A stretch of 58,459 bases of DNA from Verrucomicrobiota bacterium (GTDB taxonomy: Bacteria; Verrucomicrobiota; Verrucomicrobiia; Limisphaerales; J093): contig JAKLFY010000041.1 in NCBI GenBank assembly GCA_022710935.1, positions 1 through 58,459 of the forward strand, in the 5' to 3' direction. The translations under genes and the position numbers were made by a program. Positions 3,158-50,218 of this stretch are shown here, in pieces. The notes under the pieces were generated by a model. That model was not told where the DNA came from, searched no databases, and saw only the letters and a list, made by a program, of their open reading frames with translations. Numbering within the stretch: position 1 is the first letter of the stretch; each line of letters begins with the position of its first letter.

Positions 3158-3270
3158 GCGCTGACGGGAGCCAGGAAACATGCCCGGATTTCAGATGACT
3201 CCTTCAAGTGGCGAGAAATCCCCCAGAATGGCTTTGCAGCGCGGTTGTCAGCGCGGCATTGTTTCATTCG

Positions 3271-6095: not shown

Positions 6096-6187
6096 AAAGA
6101 CGCAGTGAACGGTGCGAACGAGATCGGCAGCACCCGCGCAACGCACGGGATGGCGCGACCCCGCGTCGTCGGTTCGTGGGGCGCCGA

Positions 6188-6264
6188 AGGCTCGCCCGCA
6201 TGGGCGCATGTCTTCGAGTTTCCGGCTTCGCCGTGGTGACAACTCCACGAAACATGCGGGCTAG
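6188..6264 (-). repeat. TAGCCCGCAT hairpin repeat, copy supplying the stop codon of the MgtC-like gene
   Basis: Read on the minus strand it starts TAGCCCGCATGTTTCGTGGA, passes through GTCACCACGGCGAAGCC, and ends near CCCATGCGGGCGAG. It matches the copies at 8770-8831 and 46953-47024 over about 65 bp. The first three bases TAG (6263-6261) are the stop codon of the MgtC-like CDS. Confidence 0.75.
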
Positions 6265-7505
6265 TTGACCGCCAGGAGCGCGGCCATCACACCGAGCGCG
6301 ATCCCAAACCGCACTGCAATGCGTCCAAACAAGCCGTGTCCGCCCAGCACTCCGACGACGCCCGCCTTGAACACCAGATTCGACATGGACGCGGCGAAGA
6401 TCAGACGCCATGCGGTCTCCGGAGGGATCTCTCCGGCATTGACCATTCGGGCAGTCGAAAGCGTGATCGCGTCCATGTCCGTCAACCCCGACAGTGCGGC
6501 CACGACGTAGAGCCCGCGGTCGCCGAACTGGTGCTTGCCGGCGGCGGTGGCCAGCAGGACCAGGGCGAAGAGGGCGCCGAACACCAGGGCGGACTTCAGT
6601 TCGGAGGGATTGCTGTGGGCCGGCATTTCGAGGGTGTGCGTGGGTGTTCGCAGCCAGAGCAATGCCGAGAGGCCGGTGCCCAGCACGATCATGATTGCCA
6701 GCGGCACAACCGCCGCCTTGAACAGGGTCTGACTGACCGCGGCGGCGACCGCCAGCACCCGCGCGAAAACAACGGTCGAGGCCAGCATGATCACCAAAGC
6801 CGCCGACCCCGTGTTGCCCGGCGTTGTTCCGCTCCGCCGCGCGTAACTGACTGTGGTGGCTGTGCTCGAGATCAATCCGCCCAAGACACCTGCCAGCACC
6901 AGCCCGACCCGGCTCCCGAACAGCTTGTAGAGCATGTAGCCGCCCAGGCTGATGGCCACGATCAACACCACCAGCCACCAGATGTGGCGCGGATTGAGAA
7001 CCTGGAACGGTCCGTAGGCCCGATCGGGCAGCACGGGGAGAATCACCATCGAGATCAACACGAATTGCATGATCGCCCGGAAGTCGTCCTCCCCAATCCG
7101 CCGCGCGAGGGCGTGCAGTTCCGATTTGAGGTGGAGAAGAATGGCCACCACGCCTCCGACGGCCACGGCGACCGAGCGATGTCCGCCGACCAGGTACGCT
7201 CCCACGCCGAACATGACCAGCAGGGCGGCCTCGGTCGTGAGCCCCGGATCTGCGTCGGGCGCGCTGAGTCGCACGTGGTTTGACGCGACGATGAGTCCGG
7301 CGAGAGCGAGCAGCCCGGCGGCGATCAGCCAGCCTCCGCGCGTCCGCCCCAACTCGGCGCAGAGCACGCCGAGAATCGTCACCAGCGGGAAGGTCCGAAA
7401 TCCGGCCAATCGCGAAGCCGCCCGTTCACGCTGCATGCCGACCAACAGACCGAGTCCCAACGCAATGCCAAGCGCTTCAAAGGTCGTTGTCAGATCCGCC
7501 ATCAT
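6261..7505 (-). CDS. MgtC/SapB-family membrane protein with DUF4010 domain
   Basis: 414 residues, highly hydrophobic with about 11-12 predicted membrane segments. The N-terminus ALGIALGLGLLVGMQRERAA is the MgtC-type signature (GLxIGLxRE). The C-terminal half carries DUF4010 landmarks: GGLISSTATTVSYARRSG, ALSGLTDMDAITLSTARMVN and FAASMSNLVFKAGVVGVLGG. Family members are linked to magnesium homeostasis or unknown transport; no specific function can be assigned here. Two adjacent ATGs (7505, 7502) are possible starts. The gene is divergent from purM with 151 bp between them. Its TAG stop is formed by a repeat element. Confidence 0.85.
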   Translation of the reverse strand: MMADLTTTFEALGIALGLGLLVGMQRERAASRLAGFRTFPLVTILGVLCAELGRTRGGWLIAAGLLALAGLIVASNHVRLSAPDADPGLTTEAALLVMFGVGAYLVGGHRSVAVAVGGVVAILLHLKSELHALARRIGEDDFRAIMQFVLISMVILPVLPDRAYGPFQVLNPRHIWWLVVLIVAISLGGYMLYKLFGSRVGLVLAGVLGGLISSTATTVSYARRSGTTPGNTGSAALVIMLASTVVFARVLAVAAAVSQTLFKAAVVPLAIMIVLGTGLSALLWLRTPTHTLEMPAHSNPSELKSALVFGALFALVLLATAAGKHQFGDRGLYVVAALSGLTDMDAITLSTARMVNAGEIPPETAWRLIFAASMSNLVFKAGVVGVLGGHGLFGRIAVRFGIALGVMAALLAVN

Positions 7506-8769: not shown

Positions 8770-8831
8770 TGCGCGCATTTTGGAGATTTGGTTTTCGCGG
8801 CGGTCACGAGTCCATGAAACATACGGCTTAG
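8770..8831 (-). repeat. TAGCCCGCAT-type hairpin repeat between purM and a radical SAM gene
   Basis: The minus strand reads TAAGCCGTATGTTTCATGGA, then GTGACCGCCGCGAAAACC, ending AAATGCGCGCACG. It is the same family as 6188-6264 and 46953-47024. It fills most of the gap between the purM stop (8766) and the stop of the convergent radical SAM gene (8853). Confidence 0.7.
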
Positions 8832-8852
8832 AGCGAGCCGTGTCCGATCGGT

Positions 8853-17097: not shown

Positions 17098-17101
17098 TTC
17101 T

Positions 17102-17171
17102 GGCCCGCATATTTGGCACACCCCGTCGGTGCACATGGCGGTCAGACCTCGCGGGATGACTGCGATGCGGT
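17102..17171 (+). repeat. GCCCGCAT hairpin repeat, CACACCCCGTCGGTGC variant
   Basis: Starts 4 nt after the beta-helix stop codon: GCCCGCATATTTGGCACACC, then CCGTCGGTGCACATGGCGGT, ending CTGCGATGCGG. It is about 85% identical to 48416-48481, downstream of the GH28 gene. The outer arms CCCGCAT / ATGCGG can pair. Confidence 0.75.
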
Positions 17172-18589: not shown

Positions 18590-18640
18590 CGGCCCGGTTA
18601 CGGTTCCTCGCAAAGCGTGTGAAATAACCGCGCCAAATGC
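18590..18640 (+). repeat. GCCCGGTTA hairpin repeat inside the V-ATPase operon
   Basis: GGCCCGGTTACGGTTCCTCG, then AAAGCGTGTGAAATAACCGC, followed by ATGCGGGC. It is nearly identical to 48483-48528. GCCCGGTTA pairs with TAACCGCGC. It occupies most of the gap between the subunit H and C genes. Confidence 0.75.
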
Positions 18641-22090: not shown

Positions 22091-22105
22091 GCCGGGAGGC
22101 CGAGG

Positions 22106-22429
22106 GTGAAGTTCTACTGCATCGCGGACGAAGACACCGTGCGCGGTTTCCGTCTGGCCGGCGTCGAGGGACGCGTCGTCACCTCGGCGTCGGAGGCCGC
22201 GGAGGCCCTCGAGGCCACAGCCGCGGACCCGGAGCATGGGGTGGTGATCCTCACGCAACAGGTGGCGGCAGCGATGCGCAAGCTGGTGGACGCCTTTCGG
22301 CTCGAGCGCGATGGGCCGCTGCTCGTCGAGATTCCCGGTCGGGAAGGACCGCTGGCCGGACGCAAGACGCTGCGCCATCTCGTGCATGCGGCCGTCGGCG
22401 TCCGCCTGGATAAGAGGGAGGGAACCTGA
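22106..22429 (+). CDS. V-type ATPase subunit F (central stalk)
   Basis: 107 residues from a GTG at 22106 with a strong purine-rich site upstream (GGGAGGCCGAGG). MKFYCIADEDTVRGFRLAGV is the typical start of the F subunit (ADxxTVxGFRLAGV), and VVILTQQVAA is the second conserved block. Its final LLVEIPGREGP matches the end of the Rossmann-like core. The stop is immediately followed by the GTG of the subunit E gene. F binds the D-subunit rotor and modulates ATP hydrolysis. Confidence 0.92.
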   Translation: MKFYCIADEDTVRGFRLAGVEGRVVTSASEAAEALEATAADPEHGVVILTQQVAAAMRKLVDAFRLERDGPLLVEIPGREGPLAGRKTLRHLVHAAVGVRLDKREGT

Positions 22430-23071
22430 GTGCCAGCCCCTGACTCCAAGGCATCCGAGCTGCTGCGCCAGGAAATCCTCGAAGAGGCCCGGGGGCAGGC
22501 GGAGGCGATCCGGAACCACGCGCGGCAGAAAGCCGAGGTCATCCTCGCCGAGGCGGAGAAGGAGGCCGAACAATTGCGGGCGGACCGGATGGAAGCAGCG
22601 CGAGCCGAGGTCAGGCGGCGGACCGAGGCCATCCTCGCCACGGTCTGCGTCGAGGCCGGGCGCATGCGCTCGGCGCGCATCGAGGATGCGCTTCAGGCGA
22701 TCCACGATCGGGCCCGCGACGAACTCCGCGCCCGGAGCGGATTCGACTTTCCGAAAGTCATCGCGGGTTTGGCGACCGAGGCGCTCGGGCAAATGGCGGG
22801 CGACGCGTTTGAGCTCCGGCTTTCGCGAGCGGACCGCGATGCCCTGGGCCGGGAGTTGGTGGATGAAATCCGGAGCGGTTCCAGCCGCTCGAACCTGACG
22901 ATCCGACTGGTGGCGGACTCAAACCTGAACCGCGGCGGCCTCTGGCTCGAGGATGACACGGGCCGACAAGCCTGGAACCTCAGCCTCGAAGCGCGCCTCG
23001 ATCGGTGCTGGCCGGGGCTGCGCCGGCAGATCGCGGCGCGTGCGGGGATCGGGGAGCACGGCGGCGCATGA
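22430..23071 (+). CDS. V-type ATPase subunit E (peripheral stalk)
   Basis: 213 residues from a GTG placed directly after the F stop codon. A long charged N-terminal helix (LLRQEILEEARGQAEAIRNH; AEAEKEAEQLRADRMEAA) is followed by a small globular C-terminal domain ending LRRQIAARAGIGEHGGA. This is the E-subunit layout: the helix pairs with subunit H/G and the head clamps the A3B3 hexamer. Overlaps the start of the A-subunit gene by 4 nt. Confidence 0.88.
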   Translation: MPAPDSKASELLRQEILEEARGQAEAIRNHARQKAEVILAEAEKEAEQLRADRMEAARAEVRRRTEAILATVCVEAGRMRSARIEDALQAIHDRARDELRARSGFDFPKVIAGLATEALGQMAGDAFELRLSRADRDALGRELVDEIRSGSSRSNLTIRLVADSNLNRGGLWLEDDTGRQAWNLSLEARLDRCWPGLRRQIAARAGIGEHGGA

Positions 23072-24864: not shown

Positions 24865-26281
24865 GCTGACCTTCACCGTCCAGGATCGCGGGCTCGAATA
24901 CCTCGGCGCGGCGCGCATCGACGGGCCGCTCGTGGTCATCGAGCGCGTTCGCGACGTGGGCTTCGACGAGGTGGTGGAAATCCTCGATCCGGAAGGCCAT
25001 CCGCGCGTCGGACGCGTGCTCGACATTTCCGGTGAACACGCCGTCATCCAGGTCCTCGAAGGCACCACCGGACTGTCCAACCAAAGCCTGCGCGCGCGTT
25101 TCCTCGGCGCGAGTTTTCTCCTGCCCGTGTCGCGGCACATGCTGGGACGCGTCTTCGACGGCCTGGGGCGCCCCGCGGACGACGGGCCGCCGCCGCTCTC
25201 GGCGGATTTGCGAGATGTCAACGGACGCCCGATCAACCCTTGCGCCCGGCGCTATCCGCGCGAGTTCATCCAGACCGGCCTGTCCGCCATCGACGGCATG
25301 AACGCGCTGGTGCGCGGACAGAAACTGCCGATGTTCTCCGGGAACGGCCTGCCGCACGACCGCGTCGCGGCGCAGATTGTGCGCCAGGCGTGCCTGCTGG
25401 AAGAGCAGACCGCGTTCTCGATTGTGTTTGCCGCCATGGGCGTGAAGCACGAAGTGGCGGACTTCTTCATCCGGAATTTCGAGGATTCCGGAGCGCTGGC
25501 CCGGGTGGCCATGTTCCTCTGCCTCGCCGACGCGCCCAGCGTCGAGCGTCTGTTGACGCCACGGGTCGCCCTCACGGTGGCCGAGCACCTCGCCTTCGAC
25601 TGCGGCCAGCACGTTCTGGTGCTGCTGACCGACATGACCAACTATTGCGAGAGCCTGCGGGAAGTCGGCACCGCGCGCGGCGAAATCCCGGGGCGCAAAG
25701 GCTACCCGGGCTACCTCTATTCCGACCTGGCGAGCCTATACGAGCGCGCGGGGCGGATCGAGGGCTCGCCCGGCTCGATCACGCAGGTCGCGATCCTCAC
25801 CATGCCCGCCGACGACATCAGCCATCCCGTGCCCGACCTCACGGGCTACATCACCGAGGGCCAGATCGTGCTGGACCGCGAGCTCTTCCAACGCGCGATC
25901 TATCCGCCGATCGCCGGGCTGCCAAGCCTCTCGCGCCTGATGAAGGACGGCGTGGGCCGGGGCTTCACGCGCGACGATCATCCGGCCCTCGCAAGCCAGT
26001 TGTTCGCCTGCTATGCTTATGTGAAGAAGGTCCGCGCGCTGGCCGACGTCATCGGCGAGGAGGAACTCAATGGCCTCGACAGGCAATACATGCGGTTCGG
26101 CGAGGCCTTCGAGCGACGCTTCCTCAACCAGGGCGAATACGAGAATCGCTCGATCCAGACCACACTCGAACTCGGTTGGGATGTGCTCTCGATGCTTCCG
26201 CGCGACGAACTCCACCGCGCGAGCGACGCGCTGGTGGAGTTGCATTACCGGAACCAGGCTGCGTCACCGGCAGGCCCTTAG
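24857..26281 (+). CDS. V-type ATPase subunit B (non-catalytic nucleotide-binding)
   Basis: 474 residues from ATG 24857, overlapping subunit A by 8 nt. The P-loop position reads PMFSGNGLPHDRVAAQI rather than a Walker A, as expected for subunit B. Other landmarks: SAIDGMNALVRGQKLP, FAAMGVKHEVADFFI, LLTDMTNYCESLREV, GRKGYPGYLYSDLASLYERA and TMPADDISHPVPDLTGYITE. Its TAG stop codon (26279-26281) is the first three bases of a hairpin repeat. Confidence 0.97.
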   Translation: MSELTFTVQDRGLEYLGAARIDGPLVVIERVRDVGFDEVVEILDPEGHPRVGRVLDISGEHAVIQVLEGTTGLSNQSLRARFLGASFLLPVSRHMLGRVFDGLGRPADDGPPPLSADLRDVNGRPINPCARRYPREFIQTGLSAIDGMNALVRGQKLPMFSGNGLPHDRVAAQIVRQACLLEEQTAFSIVFAAMGVKHEVADFFIRNFEDSGALARVAMFLCLADAPSVERLLTPRVALTVAEHLAFDCGQHVLVLLTDMTNYCESLREVGTARGEIPGRKGYPGYLYSDLASLYERAGRIEGSPGSITQVAILTMPADDISHPVPDLTGYITEGQIVLDRELFQRAIYPPIAGLPSLSRLMKDGVGRGFTRDDHPALASQLFACYAYVKKVRALADVIGEEELNGLDRQYMRFGEAFERRFLNQGEYENRSIQTTLELGWDVLSMLPRDELHRASDALVELHYRNQAASPAGP

Positions 26282-26334
26282 CCCGGAAATTTCATGCCAG
26301 GACAACGACACAGATTCCCCGGGCTATGAAATGA
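26279..26334 (+). repeat. TAGCCCGGAA hairpin repeat between V-ATPase B and D genes
   Basis: TAGCCCGGAAATTTCATGCC, then a 20-nt spacer, then ATTCCCCGGGCTATGAAATG. AGCCCGG and CCGGGCT pair. The first TAG is the stop codon of subunit B. It occupies most of the 93-bp gap before subunit D, the largest gap in the second half of the operon. Confidence 0.75.
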
Positions 26335-26374
26335 AGGGCAGGACTCGAAACCCGGAATCCGCTCTATCCTCATC

Positions 26375-27031
26375 ATGCCCAAGCTGAACGTCCCACCCAC
26401 CAAGTCGAGGCTCCTCGCCCTGAAGCGACAGCTTGCTTTCGCCGAGGAAGGCTACGATCTGCTCGACCAGAAGCGGCAAATCCTCATCTTCGAGCTGATG
26501 AGCCGCCTGGATCGGGCGCAGGAAGCCGAGGGCCGGATCGAGGAAGCCCTGCGCCGTGCCTATGACGCTCTGGGCGAAGCCGTGCTGGACATAGGCTCGG
26601 CGGCCCTCGACTGCGCCGCCCTCGGCGTGCGGTTGGACCACCGCGTGGTGCTCGATCACCAGCCGCTCATGGGCCTGCACGTGCCCCATGTGCAGGCGCT
26701 GGTGGATGCCCCCGGCGCGCAGTTCGGCGTCAGCAGCACGTCCGCAAACACCGACCTGGCCATGCAGCGCTTCGTCGAGGTCCTGCCTCTGTTGGCGGAA
26801 CTGGCCGAGTTGGAAAACGCGGTCATCCGCCTGGCCCGCGAGTTGCGCAAGACCCAGCGCCGCTGCAATGCCCTCTCGAAGCTCTTCATCCCGGCGCACC
26901 GGGAGACGATCGCCTATATCACCGGCTCGCTCGAAGAGCGCGAGCGCGAGTCCTTCGTCATCCTCAAGATGATCCGGGAACGATACGGCGGAGCGGGTCA
27001 TGACCCCCAGCCAGACCCTCGCAGGCGATAA
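26375..27031 (+). CDS. V-type ATPase subunit D (rotor shaft)
   Basis: 218 residues from ATG 26375. MPKLNVPPTKSRLLALKRQL is the typical start (xxPTKxxLxxLKxxL). Long N- and C-terminal helices form the antiparallel coiled-coil shaft; LRKTQRRCNALSKLFIPAHR with ITGSLEERERESFVILKMIR is the conserved C-terminal block. It turns inside the A3B3 head and binds subunit F. It follows a hairpin repeat and ends 5 nt before another. Confidence 0.93.
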   Translation: MPKLNVPPTKSRLLALKRQLAFAEEGYDLLDQKRQILIFELMSRLDRAQEAEGRIEEALRRAYDALGEAVLDIGSAALDCAALGVRLDHRVVLDHQPLMGLHVPHVQALVDAPGAQFGVSSTSANTDLAMQRFVEVLPLLAELAELENAVIRLARELRKTQRRCNALSKLFIPAHRETIAYITGSLEERERESFVILKMIRERYGGAGHDPQPDPRRR

Positions 27032-27035
27032 CACC

Positions 27036-27209
27036 TTAGCCCGGACATTTCACATCGCTGCGCGTGATCGGATGTCCGGGCTGTGGCAAAACCGCGCCCA
27101 GAAAGGAAACCAAGAGCCTCCTGTCGGTCCTGAAGGCGTTCTGCCATGGAGACAGTGTGTTGCATTCCTGCTGCTTCTGAGCCAGGGGCGGTTTTGCTTT
27201 TCTAACCCG
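27036..27209 (+). repeat. Composite repeat: AGCCCGGACAT hairpin plus inverted-repeat-bounded ~128-bp element
   Basis: AGCCCGGACAT (27038-27048) pairs with ATGTCCGGGCT (27072-27082). Directly after comes GGCAAAACCGCGCCC (27085-27099), answered by GGGGCGGTTTTGC (27185-27197), then TTTTCTAACCCGCG. The same combination in the same order occurs at 33493-33668. Interior sequences share GACA-GTG/CTC-TGTTGC but otherwise differ. No convincing ORF. Confidence 0.75.
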
Positions 27210-27294
27210 CGTCGCAGAGGCTCTGCGCGCAAGGCTCGACGAAGCCGCGCTGCCCCGTTAGACTCTGCGGCTGGACGAACAAGACTTAAGGCGC

Positions 27295-27891
27295 ATGAAT
27301 CTGCCGAACAAACTCACGGTGTCGCGTTTTGCGCTCACGGTGGTCTTTCTCTGGGCGGTGTTGTCGCGCTCGCCCGTGAACGACACGCTGGCCCTGGTGT
27401 TTTTCTGCGCCGCAGGCATCACGGACTATCTGGACGGACGGATTGCCCGTCGGCGCGGTCTGATCACCAACTTCGGCATCCTCATGGATCCGCTGGCCGA
27501 CAAGGTTCTGATCTGTACGGCGTTCATCATGCTGCTCGAACGCGGCCGGATGAATCCGTCGGCTCCGGTGACGGTCGAGGGGTGGATGGTGGTGCTGATT
27601 GTGGCGCGCGAGCTGGCGATCACCGGCCTGCGCCTGCTGGCGGCGTCCAAGAGCATCGTGCTGGCGGCGGAGGGCTACGGCAAACACAAGACCGTCTCGC
27701 AGATCGTGGCGATCATTTCGTTGCTCGTGCTGGACGCGCACGTCGAGTGGTGGTCCTGGCTTCGCGGCCTGCTCGGGTGGTGGGTGCCTCCCTTCACCCA
27801 ACTGGCCCTCTATGTGACTGTTGTGCTGACCGTGACCTCCGGCGCCCTCTATCTCTGGCGAAACCGGACGCTCTATCTCGATGACATGTGA
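27295..27891 (+). CDS. pgsA: CDP-diacylglycerol--glycerol-3-phosphate 3-phosphatidyltransferase
   Basis: 198 residues from ATG 27295. The CDP-alcohol phosphotransferase signature is intact: DYLDGRIARRRG, then FGILMDPLADK (DX2DGX2ARX8GX3DX3D). The protein starts MNLPNKLTVSRFALTVVFLW and has about five or six membrane segments. PgsA makes phosphatidylglycerophosphate from CDP-diacylglycerol at the inner membrane. It overlaps the next gene, which encodes the phosphatase for the following step, by 11 nt. Confidence 0.95.
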   Translation: MNLPNKLTVSRFALTVVFLWAVLSRSPVNDTLALVFFCAAGITDYLDGRIARRRGLITNFGILMDPLADKVLICTAFIMLLERGRMNPSAPVTVEGWMVVLIVARELAITGLRLLAASKSIVLAAEGYGKHKTVSQIVAIISLLVLDAHVEWWSWLRGLLGWWVPPFTQLALYVTVVLTVTSGALYLWRNRTLYLDDM

Positions 27892-28405
27892 GCGCAAGTG
27901 GGGGGACGCCCTCGTCCTGTGGATCGCTCGAGGCTTCGACGTCGGGCGCGCGCCGGTCGCCCCGGGCACGTTCGGATCGGTGGTCGGCCTGGCCTGGACG
28001 CTCGTGTTGGTCGCGACGCGGAGCGTCTGGTGGTACGGACTGGGCGTTGCGGCGGGGCTGACTTTGTCGGTCGTTGTGTGCGGGCTGGCTGAGCGGATTC
28101 TTCGGGAACGCGATCCCGGATCGGTCGTGCTTGATGAGATCACGGCGCTTCCCTTGTGTTTCGCCGGATGGATCGGTCATCATCTCTGGGTGACAGGCGC
28201 GATGCCGGCGCCGGAGGCCTTCGTGACAGGGCGCGGGTGGCTGGTCTTGGCGGCCGGTTTTGTTGCCTTCCGTCTGCTCGATGTCCTCAAGCCCTGGCCC
28301 ATCCGTCAGAGCCAGGCGTTACCAGGAGGGTGGGGTGTCACAATCGACGATGTCCTGGCCGGCCTGGCCTCGAATATCGTCTGGATCCCCTGCGCCTGGC
28401 TCTAG
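27881..28405 (+). CDS. pgpA: Phosphatidylglycerophosphatase A
   Basis: 174 residues from ATG 27881, overlapping pgsA by 11 nt. Family landmarks are GRAPVAPGTFGSVVG, DPGSVVLDEITALPL, FRLLDVLKPWPIRQSQ and GGWGVTIDDVLAGLASNI. PgpA removes the phosphate from phosphatidylglycerophosphate to give phosphatidylglycerol, so pgsA-pgpA form a two-step operon. The TAG stop (28403-28405) is the first triplet of a TAGCCCGCATTTC repeat arm. Confidence 0.93.
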   Translation: MTCERKWGDALVLWIARGFDVGRAPVAPGTFGSVVGLAWTLVLVATRSVWWYGLGVAAGLTLSVVVCGLAERILRERDPGSVVLDEITALPLCFAGWIGHHLWVTGAMPAPEAFVTGRGWLVLAAGFVAFRLLDVLKPWPIRQSQALPGGWGVTIDDVLAGLASNIVWIPCAWL

Positions 28406-28440
28406 CCCGCATTTCTCACCATCTTCTGAAGACTCGTCTG
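28403..28440 (+). repeat. TAGCCCGCATTTCTCACC repeat arm (partial copy)
   Basis: TAGCCCGCATTTCTCACCAT then CTTCTGAAGACTCG. It matches the left arm of the hairpin family; the right arm is missing or degenerate, though CTTCTGAAG is itself a small palindrome. It begins at the pgpA stop codon and lies between convergent genes. Confidence 0.6.
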
Positions 28441-28465
28441 CAACACGTTCCACCGGTCAAGGGTT

Positions 28466-29872
28466 CTAGACCGGCGCCGGCCAGTCGTCGCCCAATGCAC
28501 TCGGGGCCTGCTGGCGCCACGCGCCGCGGGTGAAGTCGGGGACCGCCACGGGCGCGCTGCCTCGAGCCACGGAGGCGATGCTCAGCGGCACAACGCTGCT
28601 CCAGGTGGCGGCGTCATAAACGGTCATGTCGAGCGGGAGCCCCCGGCGCAGGCATTGGATCAGGCGCCAGTTCATGACGTAATCCATGCCGCCATGTCCG
28701 CCGGATTGACGGGCCTGGACATTGAGGCTTTTCCAGAAGGGATGACCGTGCTTGTCGTGATACGGTTGCAGCTCGGTGGTCCAACCTTCGCCCTGACCAT
28801 CCAGATGCAGCCGGGGCGGATAGTCACAGAAGGTGCCGGTGGTGCCCGCGATGAGGTTGATGCGGCTGTAGGGGCGCGACTGAGCCAGCGAGTACTGAAT
28901 CATGAGGGTGCGCCCCAGGGCGGTCTTCACCAGCGTCGTGTTGATGTCGCCGCAGGCAAACGCCCTGCCGCGGCTTGTGGACGCGCCGGATCGGGCTTCG
29001 AGACGCCGGCTCAGCGCGAGTTCGAGCGAGCTCATCGACACCAGGTAATCGAACGTGTCGCCGGCGTGGATAGCCATGTACTCCGCGACGGGGCCGAGTC
29101 CGTGGGTCGGGTAGAGGTTGCCGTCGAGGGTGGCGACGAACCGCCGGCGCCAGTTGGCCGGGCTGTCCTCGCGCAGCAGCCAATCGCGCGCCTCGTGGAG
29201 ATAGCCGGCCTCGCCGTGCGTCAACTCGCCCAAGACGCCCTGGCGCACCATGCGCAGCACCATGAGTTCGATCTCGCCGTAGCAGCAGTTTTCGAGCATC
29301 AGGCAGTGGCGGCGCGTCTGCTCGGCTGTGTCCACCAAACGCCAGCAATCGTCGAGTGTCATGGCGGCCGGCACCTCGATTGCAGCATGCTTGCCGTGGC
29401 GCATGGCGCTGACGGCCATCGGGACGTGCCAGTCCCAGGGCGTGGCGATGTAGACCAGGTCGAGATCGTCGCGCTGGCAGAGGCGCTCGAAGTCCGTCTC
29501 GCCCCCCGAATAGCCGTCAGGCTCCGGCTGGTCCTTCGCCGCGACACGCCGCCGGGCGGCCTCGACCCGATCCGGCACGATATCGCAGATGGCCTTGATC
29601 TGGACTCCGCCCAGTTCGATCAGGTTACCCAGCAAACTCGAGCCGCGGCTCCCGACACCGATGAAGCCGATGCGGACCGTGTCGAGGGCCGGGTGGCGCA
29701 ATCCAAAAACCCGTTGCTGTCCCGGTTGGGGCGGCGGCGGAGGCGGGTCCGCCGAGGCGGCCACAGTCTTTGCGATCAGGGCGCCACCGGCGCCCGCGGC
29801 GCCCGCAACGGCGAGGAAATCACGGCGCGAGAGGGAAGCGCCGTGAGCGGATGTGGTCTTGTGCGGCATCAT
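28466..29872 (-). CDS. Tat-exported Gfo/Idh/MocA-family protein, GH109-like
   Basis: 468 residues; ATG 29869 is an equal alternative start. A Tat signal is clear (SLSRRDFLAVAGAAGAGGAL). The Rossmann domain starts VRIGFIGVGSRGSSLLGNL (GxGxxG-type), with VYIATPWDWHVPMAVSAMRH and HAAIEVPAAMTLDDCW. GNLYPTHGLGPVAEYM and FDYLVSMSS resemble GH109 enzymes, NAD-dependent alpha-N-acetylgalactosaminidases such as Elizabethkingia NagA. NAD would be bound in the cytoplasm before Tat export of the folded protein. The GH109 match is strong by recall; substrate is unproven. Confidence 0.82.
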   Translation of the reverse strand: MMPHKTTSAHGASLSRRDFLAVAGAAGAGGALIAKTVAASADPPPPPPQPGQQRVFGLRHPALDTVRIGFIGVGSRGSSLLGNLIELGGVQIKAICDIVPDRVEAARRRVAAKDQPEPDGYSGGETDFERLCQRDDLDLVYIATPWDWHVPMAVSAMRHGKHAAIEVPAAMTLDDCWRLVDTAEQTRRHCLMLENCCYGEIELMVLRMVRQGVLGELTHGEAGYLHEARDWLLREDSPANWRRRFVATLDGNLYPTHGLGPVAEYMAIHAGDTFDYLVSMSSLELALSRRLEARSGASTSRGRAFACGDINTTLVKTALGRTLMIQYSLAQSRPYSRINLIAGTTGTFCDYPPRLHLDGQGEGWTTELQPYHDKHGHPFWKSLNVQARQSGGHGGMDYVMNWRLIQCLRRGLPLDMTVYDAATWSSVVPLSIASVARGSAPVAVPDFTRGAWRQQAPSALGDDWPAPV

Positions 29873-29983
29873 AATGTCCTCTGAAATCGCTTCGAGTCGT
29901 CCGCGCCCTGTCCGGTCTTCTCACCCGCCAACCGCTCCCGCCAGGGGGGCGCGGACCGCCCGGCAGCCGGGGCCCGGCGCGTG

Positions 29984-31477
29984 TCAAGGCTCGCCGGTGC
30001 GGTCGATGGTCGTCGCAACGCGCCGGAAATGGTGGCCGATGATGGCCATCTCGATCGCCTGGCGAAACTGGTGTGGACGCAACAACAGGGTGGTCCAGAG
30101 AAGCCGCCAGTAGGCCCGCCGCCCGCGGTGAGCGACGCCGAGAACCCAGAACGACTTGAGAAAGGCGCGCACGTCGCTGGGCGAAAGACGGAGTGCGGGT
30201 CCGCGCCGCGGCTGGTGTTGGCGCAGGAAGTTGCGGATGCGCTGGTAGTAGGCGCGGGGTTCGTAGAGTCGATTCATCAGGTCGCGATAGCCGGAAAGGA
30301 GGAAATCGCGATTGAGTTTCGGACGGAAATTCAGCTCGGCTTGGGTGTTGTTGCCGCTGCTCTCGCGCTCGAGGCGCCCTTCGCGCTTGAGCCGCTCGTA
30401 GAGGCGGGTCCGCGGCAGCGCCGTCAGCAGACCCACCATCGCGGTCACCACCCCGGATCGCTGGATGAACTCGAACTGGCGTTTGAAAATGTCCGCCGGG
30501 TCGCTGTCGAATCCGACGATGAACCCGCCCATCACTTCGAGGCCGGCCTGCTGCATCGTCCGCACGGCCGACATCAGGTCGCGTCCGCGGTTCTGCATCT
30601 TGTGGCACTCGGCCAGCGACTCGGCGGAGGGCGTCTCGATTCCGACGAAGACCTTGGTGAAGCCGGCCTGGACCATCAACCGCAGCAGCTCCGGATCGTC
30701 GGCCAGGTTGACCGAGGCCTCGGTCAGGAAGCCCCCCGGCGCGCGCGTGCGGGTCCGCCACTCGATCAGCGCCCGGAGCAAGGCGCGGGCGCGCCGCTTG
30801 TCGCCGATGAAATTGTCATCGACCACGAACACCATGTCCTTCCAGCCCGCCCGGCGCAGCGTTTCGAGTTCCGCCACCAACTGCGCCGGCGTCTTGGTCC
30901 GCGGCACGCGGCCGTTCATGACGATGATGTCGCAGAATTCGCAGTCGAATGGGCAGCCGCGCGAGAACTGGACCGCCATCGTGACGTAATTGCGCAGGTC
31001 GATCAGATCCCAGCGCGGGATCGGCGTGCGCGTGACATCGGGGAATCCGCAAGCCCGGTACACGGTCTTGAGAGTGCCCTGTTCAAGATCCCGCACCAGC
31101 TCCGGCATGACGTCCTCAGCCTCGCCCAGGACGACATGCGGCACCTCGGGGAACTCCTCGTGGCCGGTGGTGAAGAGCGGGCCGCCCCCGATGAGCGGCT
31201 TGGCGGCCGCGGCGCAACGGGCCACCACATCGAGCACTGACGCCCGCTGGATGCGCATCGCGCTGAGCATGACGTAGTCGGCCCACCGCAGATGTTCATC
31301 CCGCAGGCGCTCGACGTTCAAATCCACCACCCGCAGCGACCAATCCGCCGGCAGCATGGCCGCGACGGTCAGCAGGCCCAAGGGGGGGAACGCCGCGCGT
31401 TTGGACACCATCCGGACGACATGACGAAAACTCCAAAAGGTATCTGGCGTCTGGGGACTGACTAACAGGATCTTCAT
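29984..31477 (-). CDS. B12-binding radical SAM protein (DUF4070-type C-terminus)
   Basis: 497 residues from ATG 31477 (MKILLVSPQTPDTFWSFRHV). N-terminal cobalamin-binding-like domain (residues 1-140; LSAMRIQRASVLDVVARCAA, IGGGPLFTTG). Radical SAM core with the cluster motif FSRGCPFDCEFCDIIVMNGR near residue 168, then VFVVDDNFIGDKRRA and VGIETPSAESLAECHKMQN. The C-terminus (LNFRPKLNRDFLLSGYRDL; LYEPRAYYQRIRNFL) fits DUF4070. Hopanoid C-2 methylase HpnP belongs to this architecture, but so do many uncharacterised proteins; no hopanoid genes are nearby. ATG 31513 would add twelve residues. Confidence 0.85.
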   Translation of the reverse strand: MKILLVSPQTPDTFWSFRHVVRMVSKRAAFPPLGLLTVAAMLPADWSLRVVDLNVERLRDEHLRWADYVMLSAMRIQRASVLDVVARCAAAAKPLIGGGPLFTTGHEEFPEVPHVVLGEAEDVMPELVRDLEQGTLKTVYRACGFPDVTRTPIPRWDLIDLRNYVTMAVQFSRGCPFDCEFCDIIVMNGRVPRTKTPAQLVAELETLRRAGWKDMVFVVDDNFIGDKRRARALLRALIEWRTRTRAPGGFLTEASVNLADDPELLRLMVQAGFTKVFVGIETPSAESLAECHKMQNRGRDLMSAVRTMQQAGLEVMGGFIVGFDSDPADIFKRQFEFIQRSGVVTAMVGLLTALPRTRLYERLKREGRLERESSGNNTQAELNFRPKLNRDFLLSGYRDLMNRLYEPRAYYQRIRNFLRQHQPRRGPALRLSPSDVRAFLKSFWVLGVAHRGRRAYWRLLWTTLLLRPHQFRQAIEMAIIGHHFRRVATTIDRTGEP

Positions 31478-31547
31478 GCAGTGTGTGCCGTCTCGAGGAC
31501 CGGCCGCGTTCATCGGCGGTCAGCCTCGCTGGCAGTGTGGCGGCCGT

Positions 31548-33371
31548 TCAATGGACAAGTTCAAGGAAACCGAACTTTGCCGGCGTGTGCGCGGTGGCCG
31601 CGGCGGTCGGGTTCCAGGCCAGAAAGGCCCGTTCCGTGGCGGCGTGTCGATAGAGGTTGAGGCGCCAGCGCGCGCCTGGCTCGGGCTTGGTCGGACTGAG
31701 AGCCGCAAGCGGAATCCGGAATTCGGTTGTCCAGACCTTGGTCTTGCGGTCCAGGCGGACGGCCGATTCGAACCCGCTGCTCCAGTCGAAGTCCTTGTCC
31801 CGTCCCCGGATGGCCAGGTCCAACTGCTCACCTGTCGGAGCCACCTCGAATTCCGTGTAGTGATCGGGCCGGGCCGGATCGGTTCCGATGAACGCCTCGA
31901 CAACGTCGCGTTCCCACAGCCCGAGGCGCTCCTTGTCTTTGAGGACAGGCGCGAATGTGGCGAGGGTCTCGTAAGGCGCCTCGAACCCGAAATAGAGATG
32001 CGAGTCGGACCAGAGGACACGGGCCGTTGTGGCCAAATCGGGCCGTGCGGCGCCATCTTTCAGAAGGTACTCCAGACGCACGGGCGATGCGGCCTGCCAG
32101 GCCGGCTCGTTCAGGCGCCCGTTCGGTTTGAAATCCCTGTCGATCTTCTTTGCCTGAAGCACCGGCAGAGGCAGCGATCGCACCAGCAATCGCCGGGCGT
32201 TGTCGAAGTAGACCTTCCGCAGCACGCTGGCCGGCAAGTCGATGGCGTCGATCTTCCAGTCCCCCTGAATGGGCGTCATGTGCTCGAATTGGCGGTCGGA
32301 GGTCTCGAGCCACCGCCAGTGCTTTTCGTAGAACTCGATGGCATCCTCGTCGGTCGGCGGCGAGCCGCTGCCGCCCGACCCGAGTGTGAGGTTTGCGTAC
32401 ACCATGAAATCCGTGCCGAACAGAATGCGGTCCTGGTGTTTGACAAAGAGCCGATGCACGCGCGCCGGATCGTGGCGTCCAATCTCCGGGATGCGCGCCG
32501 CGAGGTCGGCGTGCATGTTGGGGCGCTTGTCCAGGGCCTGCTCGACCCAGTCAATGTCCTCGGCGTTGTTGGCGAAATGCACGCAGACAAACGTGGTCTG
32601 CGGGTGGCGCTCGATCACGCGGTCCAGCGCTGCCAGAAGCTCGTGGAACGGCGGGTATTTCGCCGGGTCGCCAAACCACCATTGCGGGTGGTCCTTGAGC
32701 TCGCGCCAGCGTTCGTTGTCGGCATTGTAGGGCTTCCAGAACGCCTGCGGATCCGCCACGTGAATCGACACGGGCATCCCCAGCTCCCCGCAGCGCCGCC
32801 AGACCGGATCAAGCTTCGGATCGTCCACGCGGATCAGCCGGCCAGCCTTGTCTTTCAGATAAAGACCCAGGCGCTTGTATTCCTTGAAGCCCGCCGCCCC
32901 GAGCCGATACCCCTCCTCGATCTGTTGCACGGCACGCTCCGGGAAGTCGGGATCGTCCCATCCGGCGAAGTCCAGACTCATGTAATACAGGAAGCGGCCC
33001 GGGTAGAGGCGATCGGCCAGCTCCTTGTTCCGCTCGAATTCGGATTTCTCGCCCGGCTTGTGCGTGACGAAGCCTCCGCTCAGATTCACAACCAGCCCGA
33101 CCCCGACGGTGTCCATCAGGCGCATGTCCCTTCCCAGCGCCGCCTCGCTCGAATCGACGTGTTGATGGAGATCGATGAGCCGATGCTCGGCGCGCCACGC
33201 GGCGGTGGTCTGTCGGGTGGCTTCATCGGCCAGTCCGGTGATGGGAACAAGCAAGGCGGCCGCCAGGAGCCAGGGGCGGAGCGATCGCCGGGCGGGCGGG
33301 ATCGAGACGCAGGGGATCGTCAGACGGCGGTTCACAGCGGCAGCCAGAGGAAATGGAAAGCGAGTGCTCAT
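31548..33371 (-). CDS. Exported amidohydrolase-family protein with C-terminal CBM9-like domain
   Basis: 607 residues from ATG 33371, with a signal sequence after a long n-region (RRSLRPWLLAAALLVPITGLA). Residues about 60-420 form an amidohydrolase TIM barrel: HRLIDLHQHVDSS (metal-binding HxH on strand 1), MPVSIHVADPQAFW, FVCVHFANNAEDIDW and ILFGTDFMVYANL. Residues about 425-605 resemble carbohydrate-binding family 9 (FKPNGRLNEPAWQAAS, TARVLWSDSHLYFGFEA, TTEFRIPLAAL). The pairing suggests a secreted hydrolase acting near carbohydrate. Substrate unknown. Confidence 0.8.
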   Translation of the reverse strand: MSTRFPFPLAAAVNRRLTIPCVSIPPARRSLRPWLLAAALLVPITGLADEATRQTTAAWRAEHRLIDLHQHVDSSEAALGRDMRLMDTVGVGLVVNLSGGFVTHKPGEKSEFERNKELADRLYPGRFLYYMSLDFAGWDDPDFPERAVQQIEEGYRLGAAGFKEYKRLGLYLKDKAGRLIRVDDPKLDPVWRRCGELGMPVSIHVADPQAFWKPYNADNERWRELKDHPQWWFGDPAKYPPFHELLAALDRVIERHPQTTFVCVHFANNAEDIDWVEQALDKRPNMHADLAARIPEIGRHDPARVHRLFVKHQDRILFGTDFMVYANLTLGSGGSGSPPTDEDAIEFYEKHWRWLETSDRQFEHMTPIQGDWKIDAIDLPASVLRKVYFDNARRLLVRSLPLPVLQAKKIDRDFKPNGRLNEPAWQAASPVRLEYLLKDGAARPDLATTARVLWSDSHLYFGFEAPYETLATFAPVLKDKERLGLWERDVVEAFIGTDPARPDHYTEFEVAPTGEQLDLAIRGRDKDFDWSSGFESAVRLDRKTKVWTTEFRIPLAALSPTKPEPGARWRLNLYRHAATERAFLAWNPTAAATAHTPAKFGFLELVH

Positions 33372-33492
33372 TCGAAGACGCCGCGATTAAAGCCCTTCCG
33401 TGGTCCGTGCGCAACCAGTTTGCACTCGAGTCACTCCCCAGATGAAATCCGTGGCCAATGAGTCAAGTTTTCGCGCCGCGCAGCGGCGCCCC

Positions 33493-33732
33493 TTAGCCCG
33501 GATTCCTCACCACCGGGAAGATGACAACGAAATCCGGGCTGTGGCAAAACCGCGCCCGCACAGGGGAAAATGAGGTTCAGAGCGCTTCCGAATTCTCGCA
33601 GGTGCGGCGACACTCTGTTGCCCAGTTCCCTCCATCCGCTCGGGCGCGGTTTTGCTTTTCTAACCTGCATGCTTGCTTCTCTTGAGAACTCCGGCTTCGC
33701 GGTGGAACAAGTGGTGAGAAATGCAGGTTAGC
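33493..33732 (+). repeat. Composite repeat array: two hairpin repeats flanking a GGCAAAACCGCGCCC element
   Basis: Three parts in series. First AGCCCGGATT (33495-33504) pairs with AATCCGGGCT (33531-33540). Then GGCAAAACCGCGCCC (33543-33557) is answered by GGGCGCGGTTTTGC (33642-33655). Then CTAACCTGCAT (33660-33670) pairs with ATGCAGGTTAG (33721-33731). The first two parts repeat 27036-27209. The remaining 33372-33816 sequence shows no gene. A short ORF across it (LEKQNRARADGGNWATECRR) looks like a spurious translation of the repeat. Confidence 0.78.
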
Positions 33733-33816
33733 GAGGCGTCGACTGCCGGTTGCCATGGCCAAGATTCAGCGTGAACGAATTGGTGACATGCTCCCTTGGT
33801 CTGAGGCGAAGCCTCG

Positions 33817-34827
33817 CTAATCCTGGACGAGGCGGACGAAGAGGCGATCGCCGAGCGTCGCCTCGGGGACGATCAGCACGATCTGTGAGCTTGCCGGTGT
33901 GGTGGTCTGGAGGTCGGACCACGGGGCGTTGAGCGCTCCGGCGCCCTGGACGGTGAGGGGGTGATCGGCGGTGCAGGCCGCGGTCAGTTCGAGATCGCCG
34001 TTTTCGAGAACGCGATAGGCGGTGATGACTGCCGGGTCAGGGGCCGACCCGCCCGAGGTCGCCTTGAGGGGGAAGCTGTTGTAGGCGTCGAAGCCCGAGT
34101 AGGTCTCGGGCAGCGTCTGATAGGAGAGGTGCGTGTAGCGCGTGAACGAGATCCAGGCCCAATAGGTTGTGTCCGGCGTCAGCATCCCGGCCGGGATCTC
34201 GATGGCGGTCTCGGCGCCATCGATCGGTCCGGCATAGAACGCAAACTCGCCTGTCTCCGAATCCGTGATGTGGATCCAGATCTCGCGCTCGCCCTCGCCG
34301 GTGAAGGGCGCCCAGCGCAGCGTGAAGTCCTTGGTGGGATCGACCCTCTGGGCTGCATCGAAGTTGGTGCATCGAGGCGCCGGGGGGTAATCGTCCGAGG
34401 CCAGGGGCACGTCGTATCGGGTGTCTCCGGTGATGTAGCTCGAGAGGGTGAAACGGTAACTGCCGGACCCGTACTTCGAGCTCAACGCCTGTTGGCTCAC
34501 CGCCCCGTCGTAGTAATCGAAACCGCCCTCTTCGTAGTCGGTTCTCATGGCATGCGTCTGGCTGCTGGGCGTGCGAACGGTCATGCCCGAGATCCACAGA
34601 TCCCAGTCCGGGTCGCTCAGCGTCTCGTCCGTCAGATAAACATCGGCCGTGATGTCATAGGGTTCGTCCGCGCTCGGAATCAGCTCGGGATCGCCGGCGT
34701 TGTTCTGTTCGTACCAGACGGCCTTGAAGAGGAAGATTGCGCCAACGTCTTCCGCGCAGACCGCCGGCGCCAGGAGCATGGCAGAGCCCAACCACGTGCC
34801 AAGGAAGGAAGTGAAGGGGCGTTTCAT
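33817..34827 (-). CDS. Exported protein of unknown function with Fn3-like segments
   Basis: 336 residues from ATG 34827, with a signal peptide (MKRPFTSFLGTWLGSAMLLAPAVCAE). The mature part is acidic and rich in Tyr and Thr. It contains VGAIFLFKAVWYEQNN, an aromatic repeat-like region (YEEGGFDYYDGAVSQQ, YGSGSYRFTLSSYITGD), a possible Fn3-like segment (FTLRWAPFTGEGEREIWIHI; YWAWISFTRYTH), and a C-terminal sandwich-like tail (LTVQGAGALNAPWSDLQTTT) common at the ends of Verrucomicrobia exported proteins. I do not recognise the family. The frame extends upstream to 34941 without a better start. Confidence 0.65.
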   Translation of the reverse strand: MKRPFTSFLGTWLGSAMLLAPAVCAEDVGAIFLFKAVWYEQNNAGDPELIPSADEPYDITADVYLTDETLSDPDWDLWISGMTVRTPSSQTHAMRTDYEEGGFDYYDGAVSQQALSSKYGSGSYRFTLSSYITGDTRYDVPLASDDYPPAPRCTNFDAAQRVDPTKDFTLRWAPFTGEGEREIWIHITDSETGEFAFYAGPIDGAETAIEIPAGMLTPDTTYWAWISFTRYTHLSYQTLPETYSGFDAYNSFPLKATSGGSAPDPAVITAYRVLENGDLELTAACTADHPLTVQGAGALNAPWSDLQTTTPASSQIVLIVPEATLGDRLFVRLVQD

Positions 34828-34932
34828 GGCGGACCAAGAGAACGCCAGCCCGGCCCCGCAGTCAAGCCATTGCCGACAGCCCTTGCCGACAGTGTCGTTT
34901 TGACATGTTGACTGTCGCGCAGCTCGGGAGTG

Positions 34933-34960
34933 AATTGTCAACTATTTAGATGCGACCCCA
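34933..34960 (+). repeat. 28-bp motif ending TAGATGCGACCCCA, copy 1
   Basis: AATTGTCAACTATTTAGATG followed by CGACCCCA. A second copy in the same orientation lies at 50192-50218 (AATGTCAACAGTCTAGATG, CGACCCCA). The two differ at only a few positions. It resembles the terminal sequence of a mobile element, but no element joins the copies. Confidence 0.5.
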
Positions 34961-46868: not shown

Positions 46869-46952
46869 CGCGATTTTCGATGCCAATGAGGTTTCGGGCC
46901 GGGGCGCGTCGAGGTTGTTTTGACTTTCCAAGCATCGTTGCGGATGCCTGAC

Positions 46953-47024
46953 TAGCCCGCATGTTTCATGAATTTGTGATCACCGCGAAGACGAAGCCTC
47001 GAAGATGTGCATCCATGCTGGCTG
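46953..47024 (+). repeat. TAGCCCGCAT hairpin repeat overlapping the start of the GH28 gene
   Basis: TAGCCCGCATGTTTCATGAA, then TTGTGATCACCGCGAAGACG, ending CATCCATGCTGGCTGG. The AGCCCGCAT arm pairs with ATGCTGGCT. The second arm contains the ATG (47015) of the GH28-type gene. Same subfamily as 6188-6264 and 8770-8831. Confidence 0.75.
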
Positions 47025-48415
47025 GAAAGCAAAACCAGGCCTTTGGGCTGGTCGCGCTGCTGGCTGTGCAGGCGACGTTGGCGGGCGTTGTCACGCATCC
47101 CGCTCCGGCGGAGGAGATCCTGTCGTCCGATTACACGGTTGTGGCCGACGGCCAAACCGTTCCGGTCTACACGGCTCGCACCCTGGATGCGCCCTTTGCG
47201 GGCAAGCAGTGGGACTTTGGCGGGCCCTATGCGTTCGCCAATTTCATTACCGACGGCCCGGTCAAGGTGCGCATTCGTTCGGATCGGTCGCTGGCGAACA
47301 CCGTCATTCGCCCGGCACGACCGGATGTCACGATGCGCGTGGAACCGGACGGCGCGTTGGTGGTGTCGCTTCCCGGGCCGCGCAAGCTGAGCATCGAGCC
47401 GGATGGCAAGAAGGGGCCGCTGCTCCTGTTCGCCAATCCACCCGAACAGAATCCGCCCCAGCCGGACGGCGCGGGCGTGATCTACTTCGGACCCGGCGTG
47501 CATCGACCGGGCCGGATTGACGTCGGCAGCAATCAGACGCTGTGTCTGGCCGGGGGCGCCGTGGTGAAGGGCGGGGTGTACGCCCAGGGCGAGAACATCC
47601 GCATCACCGGACAAGGGATCCTCGATGGCTCGGATTACGAATGGCGCAAAGGACCGACGCCGCATGTGATTTCGATCCGCGGGACGAACGTCGAGGTGAG
47701 CGGCATCACGATTCGAGGGGCGTCGCACTGGACGATTGTGCCGCGCGACAGCCGCCACGTGACGATTCGCGGCGTCAAACTGTGCGGTTCACGGGTGCAG
47801 AACGACGATGGCATCAACCCGTGCAATTCGCAGGACGTGCTGATTACGGACTGCTTCATTCGGACGGACGACGATTGTGTGGCGCTCAAGGGGCTCGAGC
47901 TCGAAGTCCCGAACAGCAATGTCGAGCGAGTGACTGTCGAGAACTGCATCCTGTGGTGCGATCGGGCGCGGATCTTTCTCCTGGGCCACGAGAGTCGCGC
48001 GCCCTTCATGCGCGCCATCACACTGCGGAACCTGGACATCATTCATTTCTCGATGACGCCGTTTCTGTTCGAGCCGGGCGAGGAGATGCGCCTCGAGGAT
48101 GTGACGGTCGAGAACGTCCGACTGCACGGGGAAAGGCAGGGGGAGTTGGCCCGGCTGAAGCCGGTGGTCAACCAGTACATGCGCAACAAGGTGCCCGGAC
48201 ACGTCCGAAACATCGTGTTCCGCAACGTGACTCTGACCGGGCAGGCCGGCGCCTACCGCGTGCAGCTCACCGGCGCCGATGCGGATCACGCCGTGCGGGA
48301 TGTCAGGTTCGAGAACGTGGAAATCCTGGGCGAGCGGCTCGCGGCAGGTTCGGATCGCCTCGAAGTGGGCGAACATGTCGAGGGGATCAGGTTCGCCCCG
48401 CCGAGCCCCCCCTAA
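47015..48415 (+). CDS. Exported GH28-type glycoside hydrolase (polygalacturonase-like beta-helix)
   Basis: 466 residues from ATG 47015, giving a signal-like N-terminus (MLAGKQNQAFGLVALLAVQA). A right-handed beta-helix with GH28 active-site motifs: VQNDDGINPCNSQDV (Asp at about 264-265) and CFIRTDDDCVALKG (Asp pair at about 284-286), typical of polygalacturonases and related exo-enzymes. FGPGVHRPGRIDV, ITGQGILDGSDYEWR and VSGITIRGASHWTIVP are also family-like. The start codon lies in the second arm of a hairpin repeat, and the TAA stop (48413-48415) is formed by the start of another. It probably acts on pectin-like or rhamnogalacturonan chains outside the cytoplasm. Confidence 0.85.
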   Translation: MLAGKQNQAFGLVALLAVQATLAGVVTHPAPAEEILSSDYTVVADGQTVPVYTARTLDAPFAGKQWDFGGPYAFANFITDGPVKVRIRSDRSLANTVIRPARPDVTMRVEPDGALVVSLPGPRKLSIEPDGKKGPLLLFANPPEQNPPQPDGAGVIYFGPGVHRPGRIDVGSNQTLCLAGGAVVKGGVYAQGENIRITGQGILDGSDYEWRKGPTPHVISIRGTNVEVSGITIRGASHWTIVPRDSRHVTIRGVKLCGSRVQNDDGINPCNSQDVLITDCFIRTDDDCVALKGLELEVPNSNVERVTVENCILWCDRARIFLLGHESRAPFMRAITLRNLDIIHFSMTPFLFEPGEEMRLEDVTVENVRLHGERQGELARLKPVVNQYMRNKVPGHVRNIVFRNVTLTGQAGAYRVQLTGADADHAVRDVRFENVEILGERLAAGSDRLEVGEHVEGIRFAPPSPP

Positions 48416-48528
48416 CCCGCATGTTTCACACCCCGTCGGTGCACATGGCGGTCAGACTTCGCGAGAGAACTGCGATGCGGGTCAGCCCGGTTACGGTTCC
48501 TCGCGGAGCGTGTGAAATAACCGGGCTA
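48413..48528 (+). repeat. Two adjacent hairpin repeats after the GH28 gene
   Basis: First: TAACCCGCATGTTTCACACC, then CCGTCGGTGCACATGGCGGT, ending CTGCGATGCGGG (48413-48481), matching 17102-17171. Second: AGCCCGGTTACGGTTCCTCG, then GGAGCGTGTGAAATAACCGG, GCTA (48484-48527), matching 18590-18640. The first TAA is the stop of the GH28 gene. Confidence 0.8.
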
Positions 48529-48538
48529 AAACACACGG

Positions 48539-50191: not shown

Positions 50192-50218
50192 ATGTCAACA
50201 GTCTAGATGCGACCCCAC
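50192..50218 (+). repeat. 28-bp motif ending TAGATGCGACCCCA, copy 2
   Basis: AATGTCAACAGTCTAGATG followed by CGACCCCA, nearly identical to 34933-34960 and in the same orientation. It ends 2 nt before the stop codon of the GH106-type gene and borders the chimeric remnant, suggesting an old recombination or insertion boundary. Confidence 0.5.

Follow-up and report, generated by a model that had tools for sequence, protein, structure and literature searches.

Two copies of a three-part unit

We analysed a 58,459-nt stretch of DNA from a Verrucomicrobiota bacterium (assembly GCA_022710935.1, contig JAKLFY010000041.1; hereafter the window), listed as contig C196 in a draft genome of 7.5 Mb (G000). 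It carries two copies of a repeat element that a sequence-only reading had described as ~128-bp stretches with common arms and an inner GACA..TGTTGC segment, all of which were indeed present in the sequence. Measured exactly from arm to arm, each copy is a 114-nt core with 15-nt arms (27085-27198 in unit 1 and 33543-33656 in unit 2), directly preceded by a AGCCCGGA hairpin of the AGCCCGG...CCGGGCT kind, termed L (27038-27082 and 33495-33540). As also noted in that reading, the second copy is followed by another hairpin, which is complete and which we term R (33660-33731). In unit 1, R is cut down to ~10 nt (27202-27211), and the alignment with the nearest relative compared (G057, 92% identical across most of window positions 22000-34873) picks up again at 27218. 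The whole unit (L hairpin, core and inverted R hairpin) thus comprises three palindromes in a fixed order and measures ~240 nt. The parts of the two units are:

27036..27039 (+): left-end TTAG of unit 1, the putative insertion-site tetramer (sequence reading; end-tetramer tabulation)
27038..27082 (+): L hairpin of unit 1, AGCCCGGACAT...ATGTCCGGGCT (profile match, 41.7 bits; stem covariation)
27085..27198 (+): 114-nt core of unit 1 with an interior of family A (left arm 27085-27099, right arm 27184-27198; ACAGTGTGT at 27152-27160)
27202..27211 (-): R hairpin remnant of unit 1, CTAACCCGCG, remainder lost (G057 homology from 27218 on)
33493..33496 (+): left-end TTAG of unit 2 (end-tetramer tabulation)
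33495..33540 (+): L hairpin of unit 2, AGCCCGGATT...AATCCGGGCT (profile match; folding)
33543..33656 (+): 114-nt core of unit 2 with an interior of family B (left arm 33543-33557, right arm 33642-33656; ACACTCTGT at 33610-33618)
33660..33731 (-): R hairpin of unit 2, CTAACCTGCAT...ATGCAGGTTAG, inverted relative to L (profile match; folding)
33728..33731 (+): right-end TTAG of unit 2, the same as its left-end tetramer (end-tetramer tabulation)

In the relative, ~3.1 kb of other sequence lies in place of unit 1, between the homologues of window positions 27035 and 27218 (G057:C35, L174).

Copies, order and the fixed-length core

We searched the genome for the two-arm pattern (arms separated by 72-102 nt) and obtained 36 matches, compared to none for the reversed-pattern control. 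The single arms, with up to two mismatches, gave 118 and 106 matches versus 32 and 35 in the control. A scan of the order (320 genomes) found the pattern with exact arms 36 times in G000, ten times in G057, a close relative, and three times in G056, a member of another genus. Single matches in three genomes of other families (G045, G199 and G295) and one in Oscillospiraceae were put down to chance because their interiors were unrelated. A covariance model of the core had matches in six of the 14 genomes of the family, with 59, 28 and 11 core loci in G000, G057 and G056, respectively (≥ ~44 bits, one strand each). Further copies, whose absence the sequence-only reading had named as a refutation, hence exist. 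A weak single covariance-model match in G055 had, on reading, neither such arms nor hairpins. In yet another genus (g4; genomes G051 and G052), a core with other, still complementary arms (GGAAACCCGCGCC...GGCGCGGGTTTCC) took its place in 9 and 11 copies; one L-like and one R-like hairpin flanked it here as well, provided that they were intact. A viral origin was rejected, as a scan of a viral contig collection yielded no core matches.

The order of the three modules was nearly invariant. In 1.25 Mb of G000 and G057, 92 pairs of modules were adjacent (<25 nt apart), of which 86 fit either L-core-R (81 L-core or core-R pairs in the standard order) or a core-less L-R (five pairs); the remaining six showed other arrangements. 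The notion that the element always lies beside hairpins therefore holds beyond the window. Profiles of L, R and the core had 31, 39 and 20 matches in a 436-kb sample of G000 and none in the reversed sequence, although these counts are no density estimate because the sample was partly picked for cores and Y1 transposase genes. Both hairpins showed stem covariation: positions 8-10 of L were paired in 47, 47 and 49 of 55 distinct stems (shuffle maxima 41, 43 and 36), and positions 2 and 4 of R in 65 and 66 of 74 (shuffle maxima 61 and 53). Over their outer ~15 nt (roughly CCCGSATNTTTCWCA), L and R form inverted repeats.

In 19 places, L and R formed a core-less doublet whose fused junction was CCGGGCTAACCCGCAT or close to it. 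This would be expected if the core alone were a small miniature inverted-repeat transposable element (MITE) with 14-bp inverted repeats that enters existing L-R doublets at CTA. One L type indeed reads CCGGGCTA-GTT-core-TTTT-CTAACCC, as though CTA had been duplicated, and the arms of the core are kept as sequence. However, other L types have CTGT or CTCT ahead of the core and no CTA, a deletion between two CTAs would give an identical fused junction, and the core had an atypical neighbour in only two of the 92 adjacent pairs. Moreover, an empty site described below lacks the whole unit and not just the core. We thus consider independent movement of the core doubtful.

The core combines a fixed length with a variable interior. 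Of 98 cores, 75 were exactly 114 nt long and 87 were within 113-115 nt, and a MAFFT alignment of 30 diverse cores (all 114 nt) contained no gaps. Their interiors fall into families that are ~70% alike within and 35-46% alike between families. In g4, the matched core stretch was 132-135 nt in all 20 copies. An ACA-N3-YGT dyad was located 47 nt from the right end, and at no other position, in 34 of the 60 cores of a first set. Its g4 counterpart (ACA-N3-YGT or GCA-N3-TGT) kept practically this distance, 47-48 nt, in 12 of 14 distinct units and was one base off in the other two; two g4 units had a second, more distant match. From this pattern we infer that the core is a spacer with protein-contact points. 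It is an optional module, given the core-less doublets; its arms are recognition-like, its length is fixed and its conserved ACA-N3-TGT dyad keeps a constant distance to the right arm. Probably it is bound by protein and sets how the unit is arranged when folded or synapsed. The fixed length and the dyad also offer a testable way into the question of how an element without genes is recognised. A more far-reaching variant, that the unit represents a distinct class of Verrucomicrobiota miniature mobile repeats with a three-palindrome body in which a new enzyme reads the covarying end hairpins, the core acts as a molecular ruler (arms, length and dyad position constant in a genus, interiors <50% identical between families) and the other genus swapped both arms (length ~136 nt), seems rather unlikely to us.

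Could the element instead be a conserved non-coding or regulatory RNA that was spread by duplication? The covarying hairpin stems would fit, as would the DNA folding of unit 2 as a whole, which was more stable than that of shuffled sequences (z -4.0). Yet Rfam contained no match for the element at either the gathering or a relaxed threshold. Folded with RNA parameters and compared to shuffles, family A core interiors showed no structure (mean z 0.32) and those of family B/C weak structure (mean z -1.40), and RNAalifold with shuffles revealed no consistent interior fold. The arms of the core were near-invariant in sequence within the genus, with hardly any of the compensatory changes that the sequence-only reading had proposed to look for, and a whole unit was missing at an orthologous site. 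With an empty Rfam search, a family A interior no more stable than shuffles and arms with hardly any compensatory change, the suggested small RNA found no support, and we regard an RNA reading as very unlikely.

The same applies, even more strongly, to a decayed or in-frame protein-coding palindrome resembling the Rickettsia-type palindromic elements. Frame 0 was open in 23 of 26 family A cores and in all 22 of family B/C, but several other frames were open almost as often, and the position expected to vary most in frame 0 varied least. We rejected a coding core, as neither the frame test nor the position test supported it; the interiors hence do not behave as a decayed gene. Furthermore, the end tetramers contain stops, and the elements are predominantly intergenic: in the 436-kb sample, 85% of which is coding according to a simple purpose-made codon-score gene caller, 18 of 20 cores, 26 of 31 L hairpins and 36 of 39 R hairpins were outside called genes.

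Empty sites, end tetramers and stop codons

Comparison to the close relative revealed two clean empty sites. A whole unit (L129 8887-9129 in G000:C68; the same site as L011) was absent from G057, where the flanks were contiguous, and a partial unit in L027 likewise corresponded to a clean empty site. In junction alignments read by eye, both filled sites had two related tetramers (CAAG/CCAG and TTGG/TTAG), compared to a single one when empty (CGAG and TCAG, respectively).

Among the units with exact YTAR at either end, both tetramers were identical in 18 of 20, that is, in 13 of 15 from the first genus (Fisher P = 0.007 for the first base) and in all five from g4, whose tetramers include both CTAA and CTAG. 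The outer tetramers in the first genus were mainly CTAG (22 of 75 L ends and 36 of 88 R ends) and TTAG (19 and 14, respectively), with GTAG found once on either side. At two loci (L015 and L201), the tetramer agreed with the one at the far end and not with its pairing partner inside R. As YTAR is identical at both ends of most exact-ended units, these sequences suggest a 4-bp target duplication.

Our preferred interpretation, which we hold at a probability of about 0.7, is that the element forms the middle of a non-autonomous mobile repeat with three parts (L, 114-nt core, inverted R), the whole of which is moved in trans. The terminal hairpins L and R would serve as the recognised ends, and a transposase encoded elsewhere in the genome would move the whole unit into a YTAR tetramer, in the first genus most often YTAG, leaving YTAR at both ends of the unit. 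The sequence-only reading had offered a composite mobile module with hairpin ends as one option, and the near-invariant order, the whole-unit empty site and the identical YTAR tetramers of most intact units all agree with it.

For 59 of the 70 L and R matches in the 436-kb sample, we were able to locate the outer end. In 15 of these 59, the end tetramer held the stop codon of an adjacent gene that is oriented toward the repeat, compared to 0.025 on average and at most 1 when positions were shifted at random. Because YTAG and CTAR contain TAG or TAA, a unit can occupy a stop codon with the protein unchanged; insertion into YTAR that spares the protein would explain why many neighbouring stop codons lie exactly in an end tetramer. 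In the more far-reaching variant mentioned above, such targeting of stop codons would make the insertion nearly harmless. For only two of the 15 genes was there a close orthologue in the stretches compared, and in both cases the relative also had the repeat or its remnant. The overlap is a further case of repeats lying exactly on stop codons, as do the BOX repeats of Streptococcus pneumoniae, which are described as supplying the stop codon in 36 of 58 overlaps with coding sequences, with no strong evidence that genes were truncated (PMC3049150).

Several observations weigh against movement of the whole unit into YTAR. Clean empty sites were found for two insertions only, and for neither window unit, as the flanks of both are altered relative to G057. 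When decayed copies were included, the tetramers were identical in only 11 of 31 composites with both ends located. At L004 and L019, the tetramer agreed with its pairing partner inside R and not with the far end; L069 and a core-less unit in L125 (TTAG/CTAG) are further exceptions. The left tetramer in the first genus was TTAG 19 times and never CTAA. Symmetric target duplication does not account for this orientation bias, which keeps a strand-specific mechanism alive. The target duplications that the sequence-only reading had proposed to test for are favoured by the intact ends and the two empty-site insertions, and called into question by the bias, the decayed ends and the exceptions. In addition, some of the stop-codon overlaps could stem from genes truncated by the insertion. 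Finally, none of the 24 Y1 transposases encoded in three genomes (Y1_Tnp (HUH) matches: 12 in G000, seven in G057 and five in G056) was flanked by L, R or a core, and no L...R pair enclosed a transposase in the 1.25 Mb, the other parts of the genomes having been searched for Y1 genes only.

Candidate movers, related repeats and further copies in the window

Only two L...R pairs were 300-3500 nt apart in the 1.25 Mb. One encloses a histidine-kinase-like gene, as judged from its translation, and the other a cytidylate-kinase-like gene together with a gene without a Pfam match. As neither contains a transposase, we rejected both as an autonomous copy.

The features described so far also invite comparison to GTAG-type REPINs and bacterial interspersed mosaic elements (BIMEs), in which case the unit would be a doublet of repetitive extragenic palindromic (REP) sequences with a structured spacer. 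It would be moved as single-stranded DNA by a REP-associated tyrosine transposase (RAYT; HUH, Y1) without target duplication, and the right-end tetramer would be part of the element. The strict YTAG polarity in the first genus, together with the pairing of the tetramer's AG with CT at the foot of L, resembles guide pairing, and pairing of that kind is used by IS200/IS605 elements. Inverted, REP-like hairpin doublets in many intergenic copies are likewise shared with REPINs and BIMEs as described (PMC3733652; PMC3116915), and the covarying stems agree with this. REP dimers whose spacers have complementary ends are on record, and the same study lists a verrucomicrobium, Opitutus terrae, among organisms rich in GTAG repeats (PMC3733652). 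Nevertheless, of the hallmarks of GTAG REPs and REPINs, we found the inverted, covarying doublet but neither an unpaired GTAG tag nor a repeat-flanked RAYT. The tag is YTAR, with GTAG at just one of 75 L and one of 88 R ends, and it is identical at both ends of most intact units; a variable base that matches at both ends is unexpected without duplication. The 114-nt spacer of fixed length with arms conserved in sequence is another difference. Several RAYT-like genes lie between inverted repeats of a different type (24-39 nt, starting with GGGGTCA or similar), with no L, R or core beside them, and the sole Y1 gene with a unit nearby (L038) is separated from it by another gene. A RAYT was thus rejected as the mover on the basis of the Y1 genes of this genome and its two relatives, and we view the REPIN/BIME explanation as unlikely, if worth keeping in mind. 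The GGGGTCA-type repeats are similar to the GGGGWSAS ends described for the TIRYTs (PMC3733652). Separately, a Y1 transposase gene in G056 (L219, G056:C116; 157-aa open frame) has GTAGCCCGGGCC...GGCCCGGG palindromes in its vicinity and resembles a classical GTAG REPtron.

For whole-unit mobility with target duplication, other enzymes come into question. To our knowledge, IS5 MITEs have neither terminal hairpins nor a body of three palindromes, and no IS5-type transposase with the ends of the unit was found, although no search aimed at one was made. Still, YTAR is given as the four-base target duplication of IS5 (PMC10359306), a feature that makes an IS5-type DDE enzyme a candidate, and we infer that such an enzyme is somewhat ahead of an HUH enzyme as the mover. 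The unit also conforms to the general picture of a MITE, being short (~240 nt), gene-less and bounded by inverted ends, with an apparent duplication. The earlier suggestion of a MITE can be retained in this sense, except that the mobile unit is the ~240-bp composite rather than the 128-bp piece and that no partner transposase was found.

A close parallel by description is BOX (PMC3049150). Both boxA-boxB-boxC and L-core-R combine two end modules with a middle that can be absent, and both are short, with inverted ends and stop-codon overlap; the target duplications of BOX have an apparent counterpart in L-core-R. In contrast to BOX, L-core-R keeps its middle at one length in each genus, with no tandem arrays of it seen, and each end is a covarying hairpin of its own. 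The ends of BOX are said to resemble ISSpn2 (PMC3049150), whereas no partner was found for L-core-R. Our search of titles and abstracts in the literature returned no description of an L-core-R repeat. L-core-R is of a known kind, a miniature composite mobile repeat, and constitutes a new, well-defined family with an unusual middle module of fixed length. A non-model phylum thereby gains a miniature mobile repeat that has clear limits, an empty site, rules for its ends and sub-families.

It also joins many seemingly unrelated hairpins of the window into one repeat system. In addition to units 1 and 2, we identified the following copies, each by profile match and, where indicated, by the stop-codon test:

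3182..3221 (-): solo L hairpin
6194..6270 (-): solo R hairpin, whose CTAG contains the stop codon of the neighbouring gene (stop-codon test)
8773..8838 (-): solo R hairpin
17100..17170 (+): solo R hairpin
18591..18637 (-): solo L hairpin
26274..26316 (+): solo L hairpin, whose TTAG contains the stop codon of an ATP-synthase alpha/beta-family gene (stop-codon test)
46942..47028 (+): R hairpin beside a truncated core arm (unit remnant)
48403..48530 (-): L-R doublet without a core, part of the same system and with TTAG at either end

The genes upstream of unit 1 (24857-27031) encode subunits of an A/V-type ATP synthase, an alpha/beta-family subunit followed by subunit D, and the solo L hairpin and then unit 1 are at or directly 3′ of their stop codons. 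Other repeats were seen as well. A palindrome at 33728-33820, TTAGCGAGGC...GCCTCGCTAA, abuts unit 2 and has the TTAG in common with it; similar YTAGCGAGGC starts are present in L132 and in G057, and this palindrome is probably another YTAG-bounded repeat family. A ACTCCCCAGATGAAATCCGTGGC stretch adjoins units at window 33432-33455 and at ~9340-9370 of L132 (once on the opposite strand) and may be a further small repeat or a common flank. L132 also contains a ~280-nt repeat (6043-6323) that has >20 matches at 82-96% identity in G057 and is unrelated to the hairpins. Lastly, solitary 26-nt copies of TTGTCAACTATTTAGATGCGACCCCA are located at window 34935-34960 and 50192-50217, the second with differences; they match the inverted repeat around a RAYT-like gene in L039 and represent a separate family of terminal inverted repeats.

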